This document shows positions 10,311 to 14,253 of a stretch of 64,000 bases of DNA, one piece after another. The notes below the pieces were generated by a model. The model was not told where the DNA came from, ran no database searches, and saw nothing but the letters and a program-made list of their open reading frames with translations. This stretch comes from Halobellus litoreus (GTDB lineage: Archaea > Halobacteriota > Halobacteria > Halobacteriales > Haloferacaceae). The position numbers were made by a program, and so were the translations under genes. How positions within the stretch are numbered: the first letter of the stretch is position 1; each line of letters opens with the position of its first letter. The DNA lies in assembly GCF_024464595.1 (NCBI RefSeq), contig NZ_JANHAW010000002.1, positions 124,001-188,000 of the forward strand, written 5' to 3'.

Positions 10311-10667
10311 TCAGATAGTTCTAGGAACGGTCAGGAGAGGTCGCCAGTCCGGCTCCAGCTCATCGAACATAATAGCGAGTGATTCGCCTTTCTCGGTCAG
10401 GTCATAGTACGTGGCAATGGGGCGATCTTCTAAGCGCCGGCGAATGAGGACTCGCTCCTCCAGTTCCTTGAGAACCCGTGAGAGAGTAGAGGAATCGGCA
10501 GGCCTCTCTTCCTTTATGCTGTTGAATCGCTGTTCACCATTCATCACGAGGTAGTGCAAGATGACGAGTCGCCATTTCGATCCGATCTCCTCGAAGGCTT
10601 GTGTCATCGGGCACACCGAAAAATGGTCCTCGTCGCCGCTTTCGGACTCGTGGGAATCTGGTGGCAT
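10311..10667 (-). CDS. HxlR-family winged-helix transcriptional regulator
   Basis: From ATG 10667 the protein has 118 residues. The HxlR pattern is clear: Cys19-Pro near the N-terminus (FSVCPMTQAFEEIGSKW), a core helix, LSRVLKELEERVLIRRR recognition region, and a wing ending TYYDLTEKGESL. HxlR proteins are dimeric and often sense aldehydes, thiols or oxidants through the conserved cysteine. A GTG start at 10691 would add eight residues but falls inside a palindrome, so it is less likely. Codon use is more AT-rich than in the flanking core genes. Confidence 0.88.
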   Translation of the reverse strand: MPPDSHESESGDEDHFSVCPMTQAFEEIGSKWRLVILHYLVMNGEQRFNSIKEERPADSSTLSRVLKELEERVLIRRRLEDRPIATYYDLTEKGESLAIMFDELEPDWRPLLTVPRTI

Positions 10668-10681
10668 CAGCGAACACCTAT

Positions 10682-10698
10682 GTGTTAACACCTAACAC
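10682..10698. promoter_or_regulatory. Inverted repeat upstream of the HxlR gene
   Basis: GTGTTAACACCTAACAC contains the perfect 10-base palindrome GTGTTAACAC and an outer pair GTGTTA/TAACAC. It lies 15-31 bases before the HxlR start, where an autoregulatory operator would be expected. Confidence 0.4.
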
Positions 10699-10809
10699 AC
10701 ACAGCCACAAAAAAGAACCACCCACCAGCATAGAGAAGCATTAGATATTCTGATCCGATGACTACGGCACTCGCCACACCTTTTTCTCCAATGCGTGGTA
10801 ATAAATCAC

Positions 10810-12315
10810 ATGGTAGAGCCAGATTCCCATATACCCGAATCTCCACTTGATTCAGCTGCAGGGGCCGCCGAATCCCACGTCATCGAGGCGTTCAAACTGT
10901 TGAGCGACGAAATTCGATTGGCAATCCTGCTGGCACTGTGGGAGGTGTACAATCCCTATGCCGAGGACAACGCTGTCTCGTTTTCGCGGTTGTTCGACCG
11001 CATCGGCGTCCAGGACAGCGGCAATTTCAGCTACCACCTCGACAGACTGGTCGGTCACTATGTCGAAAAAACCGACGCCGGCTACCGACTCCGAAACTCC
11101 GGGCTCAAAATCGTCCGGGCAGTCATCGCAGGCTCGGGCCTCGAATCGCGCCGTCTGCTACCAACCGAGATTCCTCGGTCCTGCTACCACTGTGGTGCTC
11201 CAGTGGAACTCAGTTACGAAGACGAGCGACTCTACCAGATCTGTACCGAGTGCGAGGGGAATATCGGCCCCGAGTCTACCGAACAGACGCGTGAGGGAAC
11301 GCTCATCGTCTACGATGACTTCAACCCCGCCGGCTTGTCCCATCGGACGCCCGAGGAGGTATTCGTGGCAGGAACGATCGAGTACGTTCAAACCGTCAAG
11401 TTACTCATCAGGGGTGTTTGTCCGGAATGTTCCGGACCGATCGAGGAATCCCTGGAGATCTGTGATTCCCACGACGCTCCGGCGGGGGAACTCTGCCCCA
11501 ACTGTGGCACGTCGATGCGTGGTGGCTGGAACGAAGCCCGGGTCAGTTACGTGTGCTCGGTCTGCAAGCACAGCGCGTCCTATCCGGCGTGGGTGGCTGT
11601 ATTCGACCATCCTGCGGTCGTCGCGTTTTACCACGAACACGGATTCGATATGACCTACGGCCTTGACGACCCCGAGGTCTGTGGCCGGTTGTTCGATCGC
11701 CTCAAAAAGGAACAGACGGTCGTGTCCAGAGATCCAGTTCGGATTCGCGTGACCGCCACATATGATGGAGCGGAGCTCCACCTGACCCTCGATGAGAATC
11801 TCACTGTCGTAGGTGTCAGCCGCGACGACTCCGGGACGGATCGTGACTTGGATGCGGCTGCGAACAAACGGGTTGCGAGCAGTTCCTCTCCTGAGATCTC
11901 CTCCACAGACAGTGGGGAGAGCGATGAGTCGGTCAGTCTTCCAGACACTGATGACTGCCTACAGACGCTCCGACGCTCTCGTTGGCCGGATGGAACTCGA
12001 TGTCCGAACTGCGACAGTATGGATACGATCAAGAAAGGAACGACGAGCAAGGGCGCACAACGGTACAAGTGCCAGACTTGCGATGGCAAATTCAACGACC
12101 TGACGGGGACGCTCTTAGCCGATCATCAACTTTCTATTCCGGAAATGGTCCATATCATCCGAGAGATGAACACGACAGAGGTCACGCAAATTGCGCGACA
12201 ACTCGACCGTTCCTACAAAGCCGTGCTGGAATTCGCTCACGAGGTCCGAGATAGCGGTACCGCGAGTTTCGAATCCACTGTTGTGACAGCCGTATCTCGG
12301 TCGAACTCAGTCTGA
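10810..12315 (+). CDS. Winged-helix / zinc-ribbon regulator fused to a transposase-type zinc ribbon
   Basis: From ATG 10810 (GTG 10795 is possible) the product has 501 residues. Residues ~25-105 form an ArsR-like winged helix (AFKLLSDEIRLAILLAL). Residues ~120-270 hold several CxxC pairs (CYHCGAP, CTEC, CPEC, CPNC, CSVC) as in a haloarchaeal regulator family. After an acidic Ser-rich linker (~350-375), residues ~385-485 hold a different ribbon (Cys398, Cys401, Cys421, Cys424) followed by a helix-turn-helix. That segment matches the N-terminus of IS1595-type transposases (RWPDGxxCPNC ... TSKGAQRYKCQTC ... FNDLTGT). There is no DDE catalytic domain. It is read as a DNA-binding regulator that has captured a transposase DNA-binding module. 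Confidence 0.8.
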   Translation: MVEPDSHIPESPLDSAAGAAESHVIEAFKLLSDEIRLAILLALWEVYNPYAEDNAVSFSRLFDRIGVQDSGNFSYHLDRLVGHYVEKTDAGYRLRNSGLKIVRAVIAGSGLESRRLLPTEIPRSCYHCGAPVELSYEDERLYQICTECEGNIGPESTEQTREGTLIVYDDFNPAGLSHRTPEEVFVAGTIEYVQTVKLLIRGVCPECSGPIEESLEICDSHDAPAGELCPNCGTSMRGGWNEARVSYVCSVCKHSASYPAWVAVFDHPAVVAFYHEHGFDMTYGLDDPEVCGRLFDRLKKEQTVVSRDPVRIRVTATYDGAELHLTLDENLTVVGVSRDDSGTDRDLDAAANKRVASSSSPEISSTDSGESDESVSLPDTDDCLQTLRRSRWPDGTRCPNCDSMDTIKKGTTSKGAQRYKCQTCDGKFNDLTGTLLADHQLSIPEMVHIIREMNTTEVTQIARQLDRSYKAVLEFAHEVRDSGTASFESTVVTAVSRSNSV

Positions 12316-12828
12316 CGATTGGTCTCCAACACAACGGACGTGATCCGATGTCCGAAAGAGTGCTCCGGGATCACTGAAATCAGTCTCCACCTGTTCTATT
12401 ACCCGGTCACAAACGAAGCCAGGTCCGCGATGAATTTTCTCGGACGGCAAATCGAGTTCGCCCGACGAAACAGAACCAGGATACGATGCCTCATTCGGAT
12501 CTCGTCCGAGTCCTGGTTTCTACATATGACTTCGTAGAGACTTCGGACCCCGTCCCCCGCGTCATCAGAATCGCGCCGTCACCAGCAACGCACCTGTGTC
12601 GCCAAGACACGGCGAACAGAGTGGATCAGACAGACAGTGTGCTTACTGAAATTTCATACAGATTATACTTTTGGTCCGTCCAATAGTATCAGTAGGTGAG
12701 TCGTGAGGGCACGATGCCGGCCGCCAATGCCCGCTAAACGACCCCGTGGACGACCAGTGGCACAGAGTATCACGTAGAACGTGACGCGGAAGCACAACCG
12801 ACGCCGGCCGACTACACGGTGAGTACTC
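12316..12828. other. Intergenic stretch, AT-richer, no supported gene
   Basis: This 513-base gap has short open frames without recognisable motifs. It contains an AT-rich segment near 12655-12675 (possible TATA region) and an inverted repeat at 12770-12784 before the methyltransferase. It is probably a long regulatory region or remnant DNA. Confidence 0.4.
12770..12784. promoter_or_regulatory. TCACGT-AGA-ACGTGA inverted repeat upstream of the methyltransferase
   Basis: A perfect 6-base-arm inverted repeat with a three-base spacer lies 45-59 bases before the O-methyltransferase start. It is a candidate operator; the regulator is unknown, although the fused regulator just upstream is a natural suspect. 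Confidence 0.4.
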
Positions 12829-13893
12829 ATGGCAGAAACCACACCAGACGATAGAGAACACACGCCCGAAGAAACCGAACCGAGTCCGGAACACATTATG
12901 CAGGTTGCGACCGGATTTTGGGGGACGAAAGTTTTGGGTGCAGCCGTCGATCTAGAACTATTCACCGTCCTCGCAGACGGAGGGCTTCGAGCCTCCGAGA
13001 TCGAACGGGAACTCGGCTTGCATCCCCGGGCGACCAGAGATTTCCTCGACACGCTCGCGTCGCTCGGATTCCTCGAACGTGACAACGGGGACGATCCCCG
13101 GTATCGGAACACGCCGGAGACTGCGGCATTTCTGAACAAGGCCGATCCACGCTACATCGGTGGCGCGATCAACATCTTCAACCAGCAAACCTACGACGTG
13201 TGGGGAGGGCTCGAAGAGAGTCTGCGAACAGGCGAACCACAGGGAGTCATCGATGAGACGGGCGAACCGCTGTGGGAGGAGATGTACGATGACCCTATGG
13301 AACTAGAGGCGTTCGCCGAGGGGATGGCCGGGCTGTCAAAGGGGAACTTCGTCGCGTTTGCCGAGCAGTTCGATTTCTCGGACTACGACTCGATGACGGA
13401 CGTTGGAGGTGCTCTCGGCGACCTGTCTCGGATCGTGGCCCGACGCGAATCCCACCTTTCGATCACTACGACGGACCTGCCGGAGGTGGCTGAACTGGCC
13501 CGCGAGCGCATCCATACTGACGGCCTTGAGGATCGGATCGACGCCGTCAGCAGCGACTACAACGAGGAGCCCATCCCCGACGCGGACCTCGTAACAGCGA
13601 GTCTGGTCCTCCATCAGGAGAACCTGGAGACGAAAAAGACGCTCATGGAGAAGTTCTACGATGCCGTCAACCCGGGCGGAACCTTCGTCGCTATCGACCA
13701 CATCATCGACGACGAGCGCCAGGCGAATACTATGGGTCTGATGATGTCGCTGAATATGCTCGTATACTACGGTGACGCATTCGACTACACCGGGCAACAG
13801 TTCGTGTCGTGGGCGGAGGACGCAGGCTTCGAGGACGTCCAGATTCAGCATTTGAAGGGGCCAGCGAGTATGGGGATTGCACACAAGGGTTGA
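12829..13893 (+). CDS. SAM-dependent O-methyltransferase (acetylserotonin OMT / CrtF-like family)
   Basis: The 354-residue protein has an N-terminal winged-helix dimerisation domain (residues ~25-110, VATGFWGTKVLGAAVDLELF and a following wing) and a C-terminal Rossmann methyltransferase domain. The SAM-binding loop reads MTDVGGALGDLSRIV, a slight variant of the usual DVGGGxG, with Ala in one Gly position. A catalytic-region segment VLHQENLETKKTLMEKFYDAVNPGG is typical. Such enzymes methylate hydroxyl groups of small molecules; the substrate is unknown. It lies in the accessory region beside regulators, which suggests a specialised or detoxifying role. Confidence 0.85.
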   Translation: MAETTPDDREHTPEETEPSPEHIMQVATGFWGTKVLGAAVDLELFTVLADGGLRASEIERELGLHPRATRDFLDTLASLGFLERDNGDDPRYRNTPETAAFLNKADPRYIGGAINIFNQQTYDVWGGLEESLRTGEPQGVIDETGEPLWEEMYDDPMELEAFAEGMAGLSKGNFVAFAEQFDFSDYDSMTDVGGALGDLSRIVARRESHLSITTTDLPEVAELARERIHTDGLEDRIDAVSSDYNEEPIPDADLVTASLVLHQENLETKKTLMEKFYDAVNPGGTFVAIDHIIDDERQANTMGLMMSLNMLVYYGDAFDYTGQQFVSWAEDAGFEDVQIQHLKGPASMGIAHKG

Positions 13894-13896
13894 ATT

Positions 13897-14140
13897 TCAG
13901 AGAGTATCCTCATCAGGCGGTTTCGCCGGTCTCGCTCCGCGTAACAGCACCAGGATGATCCCGGGCGCGTGGAGTTCGGGTCGTAGTTGCAGTTCGGACA
14001 GTAGAGGTCGAACGTCATCGCATAGCATCTCTCGCATTCGTCACAAATCCCGGTACTGGCGTCGTGGTTTTCACACACATCAACGGACGTTTCGAGTTTG
14101 GCAGAGCACCGCGAGCAGACGCCAGCACTGTCGATAAAAA
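13897..14140 (-). pseudogene. Degraded zinc-ribbon regulator fragment
   Basis: The minus strand encodes AGVCSRCSAKLETSVDVCE followed by more CxxC pairs ending YCPNCNYDP. This aligns with residues ~205-255 of the fused regulator at 10810-12315 (GVCPECSGPIEESLEICDSHDA). No winged helix or start is present upstream. After YDP the frame drifts into unrelated sequence, but a one-base shift gives PGIILVLLRGARPAK and a stop at 13897, four bases from the convergent methyltransferase stop. It is read as the 3' relict of a regulator paralog with a frameshift. Confidence 0.5.
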
Positions 14141-14253
14141 GTCTGCGTGTCGCCACTCGCCTGAATTGGCTGCTTAGGCAGAGACAGCAAATTACTCGGC
14201 ATCGTATTGTAAGTGGAACCAATCGTTTTCAGGCTCGTATACGTACTTAGCTT

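Follow-up and report, generated by a model that had tools for sequence, protein, structure and literature searches.

A haloarchaeal regulator fused to the DNA-binding module of an IS1595 transposase and retained in three genera

A regulator of the DUF7347-DUF7351 family of Halobellus litoreus was found to have captured the zinc ribbon and helix-turn-helix (HTH) of an IS1595 transposase in one intact open reading frame, and this fusion has been maintained in three genera of haloarchaea. The protein is best read as a prokaryotic transposase-capture regulator, a two-headed factor that would control an adjacent O-methyltransferase gene and perhaps itself, and a probability of about 0.7 was assigned to this reading. 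All coordinates refer to the window, the whole stretch of 64,000 nucleotides that was analyzed, and the features are collected in Table 1.

Table 1. Features of the fusion locus in the window
Feature	Position	Strand	Evidence or remark
Fusion regulator gene	10810..12315	+	single open frame, 501 aa
DUF7347 winged helix, residues 26-105	10885..11124	+	Pfam E 1.4e-28; dN/dS 0.17-0.19
DUF7351 with CxxC zinc ribbons, residues 123-333	11176..11808	+	Pfam E 1.2e-41; dN/dS 0.13-0.15
Acidic/Ser-rich linker, residues 339-376 (38 residues)	11824..11937	+	dN/dS 0.53-1.02
Captured IS1595 module, residues 377-482	11938..12255	+	59% to IS1595 transposase N-terminus; dN/dS 0.11-0.21
C-terminal tail, residues 483-501, then stop	12256..12315	+	no clear homology
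Longest invariant intergenic run	12499..12527	.	29/29 columns identical in three genera
IS1595 inverted-repeat-like site, candidate operator or IS right-end relic	12508..12531	-	17/24
O-methyltransferase gene (Dimerisation + Methyltransf_2)	12829..13893	+	co-inherited with fusion; candidate target
HxlR-type regulator, divergent neighbor	10311..10691	-	common to Salinirubellus plasmid, not Halorarius

Architecture of the fusion and source of its module

A reading made earlier from the sequence alone had described one frame encoding an ArsR-like winged helix and zinc ribbons, an acidic linker and a transposase-type zinc ribbon plus HTH, with no catalytic domain. Each of these parts was recovered by domain searches and by the translation of the window, the ArsR signal being the weak one. 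The matches to DUF7347 and DUF7351 were both far above the Pfam gathering score, and the ArsR-like character was weak but present (HTH_20 at 1.2e-3 in Pfam and NF033788 at 0.019 in NCBIfam). In the module, Zn_ribbon_IS1595 matched residues 380-424 (5e-9, above the Pfam gathering score), the NCBIfam model IS1_IS1595_Zn matched residues 398-430 (5e-10) and the IS1 transposase model reached over residues 398-481. The zinc ribbon is formed by C398, C401, C421 and C424, and the HTH occupies residues 431-482 approximately. Hence, the order of the parts is DUF7347, DUF7351, linker and IS1595 zinc ribbon plus HTH, that is, the winged helix followed by DUF7351 that defines the regulator family and then the IS1595/InsA-type zinc ribbon that stands at the N-terminus of IS1595 transposases. 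The DDE (ISXO2-like) catalytic domain was absent from the fusion protein and from the downstream DNA. The ATG at 10810 was the start kept in all three orthologues, and an in-frame GTG is also present at 10795 (+). No match was obtained when the fusion was searched against PDB sequences, and the structure predictions were of low confidence (pLDDT of 52 for the module alone and 35 for the full length).

Residues 1-343 correspond to a normal haloarchaeal DUF7347-DUF7351 (ArsR/winged-helix) regulator, with up to 48% identity. The ordinary members of this family end near residue 338-343, where the linker begins, and most homologues stop 11 residues or fewer from the end of the homology, whereas the fusion bears about 160 extra residues. 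The H. litoreus genome has three further DUF7347-DUF7351 paralogues, all of them without a C-terminal extension, and no other fusion to an IS1595 module was found among the DUF7351 loci compared. Past the methyltransferase gene, at 14034-14216 on the minus strand, lies what is left of a further DUF7351-type regulator, which matched at 32% over 60 residues, and a longer remnant of this type occupies the corresponding site of the Salinirubellus plasmid.

The assignment of the C-terminus to the IS1595 type, likewise proposed from the sequence alone, was corroborated by its closest relatives. Fusion residues 367-488, approximately, matched the N-terminal ends of IS1595 transposases from haloarchaeal genomes, which formed two groups, one with 55-62% identity and the other, multicopy, with about 40%; genes of both groups are named 'IS1595 family transposase' in annotated plasmid records. 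Identity to the nearest IS1595 elements was 57-62%. An intact relative of 294 aa (genome G063) carries DDE_Tnp_IS1595 at residues 126-274, matches NF033547 (IS1595) at 7.5e-39 and is 59% identical to the module over its residues 3-117, the homology stopping at residue 117 (window position 12255), before the DDE domain. The captured part therefore begins close to the start codon of the transposase and includes the HTH to its end, but none of the catalytic domain. With the haloarchaeal IS1595 transposases (ISNpe28-like and the AArc-T1-2 element) the fusion has the zinc ribbon and HTH in common, at 40-62% identity and aligned near the transposase start, but it is a single copy joined to a regulator, without DDE domain and without a flanking pair of inverted repeats.

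The cognate IS measures about 946 bp and has the inverted repeats GCTCATCTGTAG(C/A)AGT(G/C)A(A/G)TACTT. Paired terminal inverted repeats were not found around the fusion gene, where no left repeat and one weak right-like site were detected. A relic of the catalytic domain downstream was considered and rejected, since the alignment of the 3' part of the IS with the intergenic DNA scored like shuffles; the protein match of the C-terminal tail, weak at E 0.07, was given no weight.

Two further observations were made on the IS1595 relatives. In many copies (L049 about 1955-2000, L052, L074, L075 and L078) the transposase is split at CTCAAAAAAAGGG, with the second part in the -1 frame, so that two products may be made, as in IS1: one that terminates shortly past the zinc ribbon/HTH and the full transposase obtained by frameshifting. 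Additionally, stand-alone proteins of ~130 aa that have the zinc ribbon and HTH, at 49-53% identity, but lack a DDE domain were observed at L067 1345-1854 and L068 (reverse complement) 1483-1872. The two genomes belong to one genus, and in both the gene is flanked by the same pair, leuB-like and homoserine-kinase-like by visual inspection; the IS1595 zinc-ribbon/HTH module was probably domesticated here in a separate or earlier event.

Occurrence in other genomes and selection

The same fusion was sought in other genomes and was found, at full length, in the chromosome of Halorarius halobius ZY10 (L048 1921-3450, 82%, 509 aa) and on plasmid NZ_CP147842.1 of Salinirubellus sp. SYNS196 (89%), in which both the start and the stop of the gene are kept. 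The Halorarius fusion was recovered once again in a search of a family other than that of the window (the family of G119). For NZ_CP147842.1, the PLSDB table, which is incomplete, lists no CDS for the intact fusion gene (L100 11859-14019). The fusion is rare, with three finds in total: no further one was found in a sample of 392 genomes of the order or in the genomes of three families (170, 146 and 125), it was missing from all 169 other genomes searched in the H. litoreus family, and viral contigs and phages gave no relatives. As the same in-frame junction is present in two other genera, the fusion is no assembly error. In a tree of modules the three fusion modules formed one clade with a support of 100/99, which is consistent with a single origin, and one capture followed by horizontal spread would be the simplest history.

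The codons of the three fusion genes were compared in three pairs, which have branches in common and do not represent independent comparisons. The captured module was as strongly constrained as the host regulator part, its HTH being the most constrained part of all (dN/dS 0.08-0.14), and the linker was far less constrained, close to free (Table 1). In the module, synonymous differences exceeded non-synonymous ones in the three pairs (Fisher p of 1.8e-6, 3.8e-6 and 4.7e-5), and all four zinc cysteines were retained in the three genera. A regulator and a transposase DNA-binding domain are thus joined in one frame in several taxa with the module under purifying selection, and a fusion that three genera keep and preserve looks like a working new regulator. 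The sequence-only reading had regarded the C-terminus as a domesticated transposase module, and its reservation that the fusion might be unique to this genome, with a disrupted junction, does not apply given the other genomes and the selection on the C-terminus; nor does its second one, that another family might match the C-terminal segment better.

Methyltransferase neighborhood and candidate operator

The fusion and the O-methyltransferase genes were the only ones present in all three loci, within the stretches compared, and their block showed 86-91% nucleotide identity. The block common with Halorarius (10762-13893) extends from just before the fusion start codon to exactly the methyltransferase stop, and that common with the Salinirubellus plasmid also covers the upstream divergent HxlR regulator and a downstream HVO_A0261-like regulator. 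The methyltransferase is bacterial in type, with a best non-archaeal plasmid match of 48% in Rhizobium. Other haloarchaea almost entirely lack it, a search of 292 further genomes of the order yielding a single distant relative at 37%. The GC content of the region, a low-GC island of 57% versus 66% for the window, fits an acquisition. A tyrosine-recombinase gene was also observed in Halorarius just downstream of the cassette (L048 5317-6336), which hints at a mobile segment; a tRNA-borne integrative element was considered at this locus and rejected, no tRNA being found there. The methyltransferase may be the regulatory target of the fusion, although co-inheritance does not amount to proof of regulation.

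Furthermore, the intergenic region between the two genes was 73% identical by column in the three genera, and an invariant run of the observed length was reached by 215 of 20000 column shuffles (1.1%). This run is overlapped by the best match to the IS inverted repeat in the entire window, which is oriented like the right end of an IS. Dinucleotide shuffling of the region produced its score of 17 once in 400 trials, and about 1.6% of background 513-bp chunks reached it. The Halorarius and Salinirubellus sites scored 16 and 17, values that, given the conservation of the block, do not count as independent evidence. The site lacks the outer CGCTC core, common to elements of both IS1595 groups examined, and could hardly serve transposition as such. 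No second copy was found within 3 mismatches in the H. litoreus genome, and dispersed sites of this kind were sought across that genome and none was found. The resemblance to the inverted repeat is modest and suggestive, a lead with p about 0.003-0.02. The idea that terminal inverted repeats would lie near target promoters thus received suggestive support from one site, which adjoins the fusion gene itself.

Proposed mechanism, alternatives and significance

In the proposed mechanism, an IS1595 element would have come to sit immediately downstream of a DUF7347-DUF7351 regulator gene, whose frame would then have run on into the transposase zinc ribbon and HTH while the catalytic part was lost. 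In the product, a flexible linker would connect two parts that bind DNA. One would be the winged helix and the other the InsA-like zinc-ribbon/HTH, the unit by which transposases recognize the inverted repeat; DUF7351 would be the dimerizing or sensing part. The fusion gene may have spread as a cassette together with the O-methyltransferase. Bipartite binding in the common intergenic region, with the winged helix on one site and the module on another, would place the methyltransferase, and perhaps the regulator itself, under the control of whatever DUF7351 senses. From these comparisons we infer DNA binding by the module and, with it, a target, a sign of regulation and a role for the inverted-repeat-like site; the module may likewise give the regulator a second DNA specificity, as the sequence-only reading suggested. 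A more elaborate version, in which the inverted-repeat remnant of the same element became the operator of the methyltransferase while its transposase domain was fused to the host sensor-regulator, and the pair spread horizontally between genera as a captured circuit, is doubtful.

Other explanations were weighed against this mechanism. The fusion might have a wider regulon or control only itself, the methyltransferase being a passenger of the mobile cassette, and the many other metabolic and regulatory genes around the Salinirubellus plasmid copy fit this explanation; nevertheless, only the fusion and the methyltransferase are common to the three loci, and the match to Halorarius runs precisely to the stop codon of the methyltransferase, so that it was kept as a possible, less favored alternative. 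The module could also have given up DNA binding of its own and be used in oligomerization, partner contact or protein stability. Zinc ribbons are versatile and the linker would allow other roles, but the HTH is the most constrained part, and the corresponding unit of IS1 binds inverted repeats: InsA is a zinc-finger/HTH unit without catalytic domain that acts as a repressor on them (PMC12428005). A module without DNA binding was hence considered unlikely.

The InsA precedent also invites the explanation of a transposon silencer: the module would still bind inverted repeats and would repress or block IS1595 elements related to it, in the way that InsA acts on IS1. The relatives of the module do include multicopy, recently active-looking IS. 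Nevertheless, a closely related element was missing from both of the fusion genomes that were searched (the next best match was 29%, E 0.05, in H. litoreus and the best 35% in Halorarius), and the inverted-repeat-like site is single and adjoins the fusion gene, which makes a silencer quite improbable. Finally, the IS1595 element might simply have landed in frame behind the regulator, leaving a neutral tail whose erosion is pending. The loss of the catalytic domain and of the left inverted repeat and the rarity of the fusion would agree with this, but the purifying selection on the module in the three pairs, strongest in the HTH, beside a drifting linker, together with the four retained cysteines, points to domestication and makes a decaying IS remnant very unlikely.

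As a probable transcription factor of the transposase-capture type, the fusion resembles InsA in that a transposase zinc finger and HTH act without a catalytic domain, and differs from it in that InsA is a free protein of a mobile element that regulates its own IS. Regulators that acquired the DNA-binding domain of a transposase are well documented in metazoans (PMC10027918), including the transcription factors of vertebrates (Cosby et al., 2021, as cited in PMC10027918). There, as in the fusion, a host regulator gained such a domain and the combination was retained. The vertebrate factors arose mostly by splicing, whereas the archaeal fusion is a direct in-frame join that apparently spread horizontally. 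A review of the recruitment of prokaryotic mobile elements treats regulators derived from phages and antitoxins (PMC8987985), and a term search within it revealed no case of a host regulator that had been joined to the DNA-binding domain of a transposase.

In animals, new transcription factors are well known to arise by transposase capture, a route that is little described in archaea within the open-access literature covered here. At this locus, small and readily tested, one can see together the ancestral components, the point at which they were joined, the selection and a candidate operator. The fusion would show that an innovation route of the animal type also operates in archaea and would provide a simple model for the origin of a two-site regulator.
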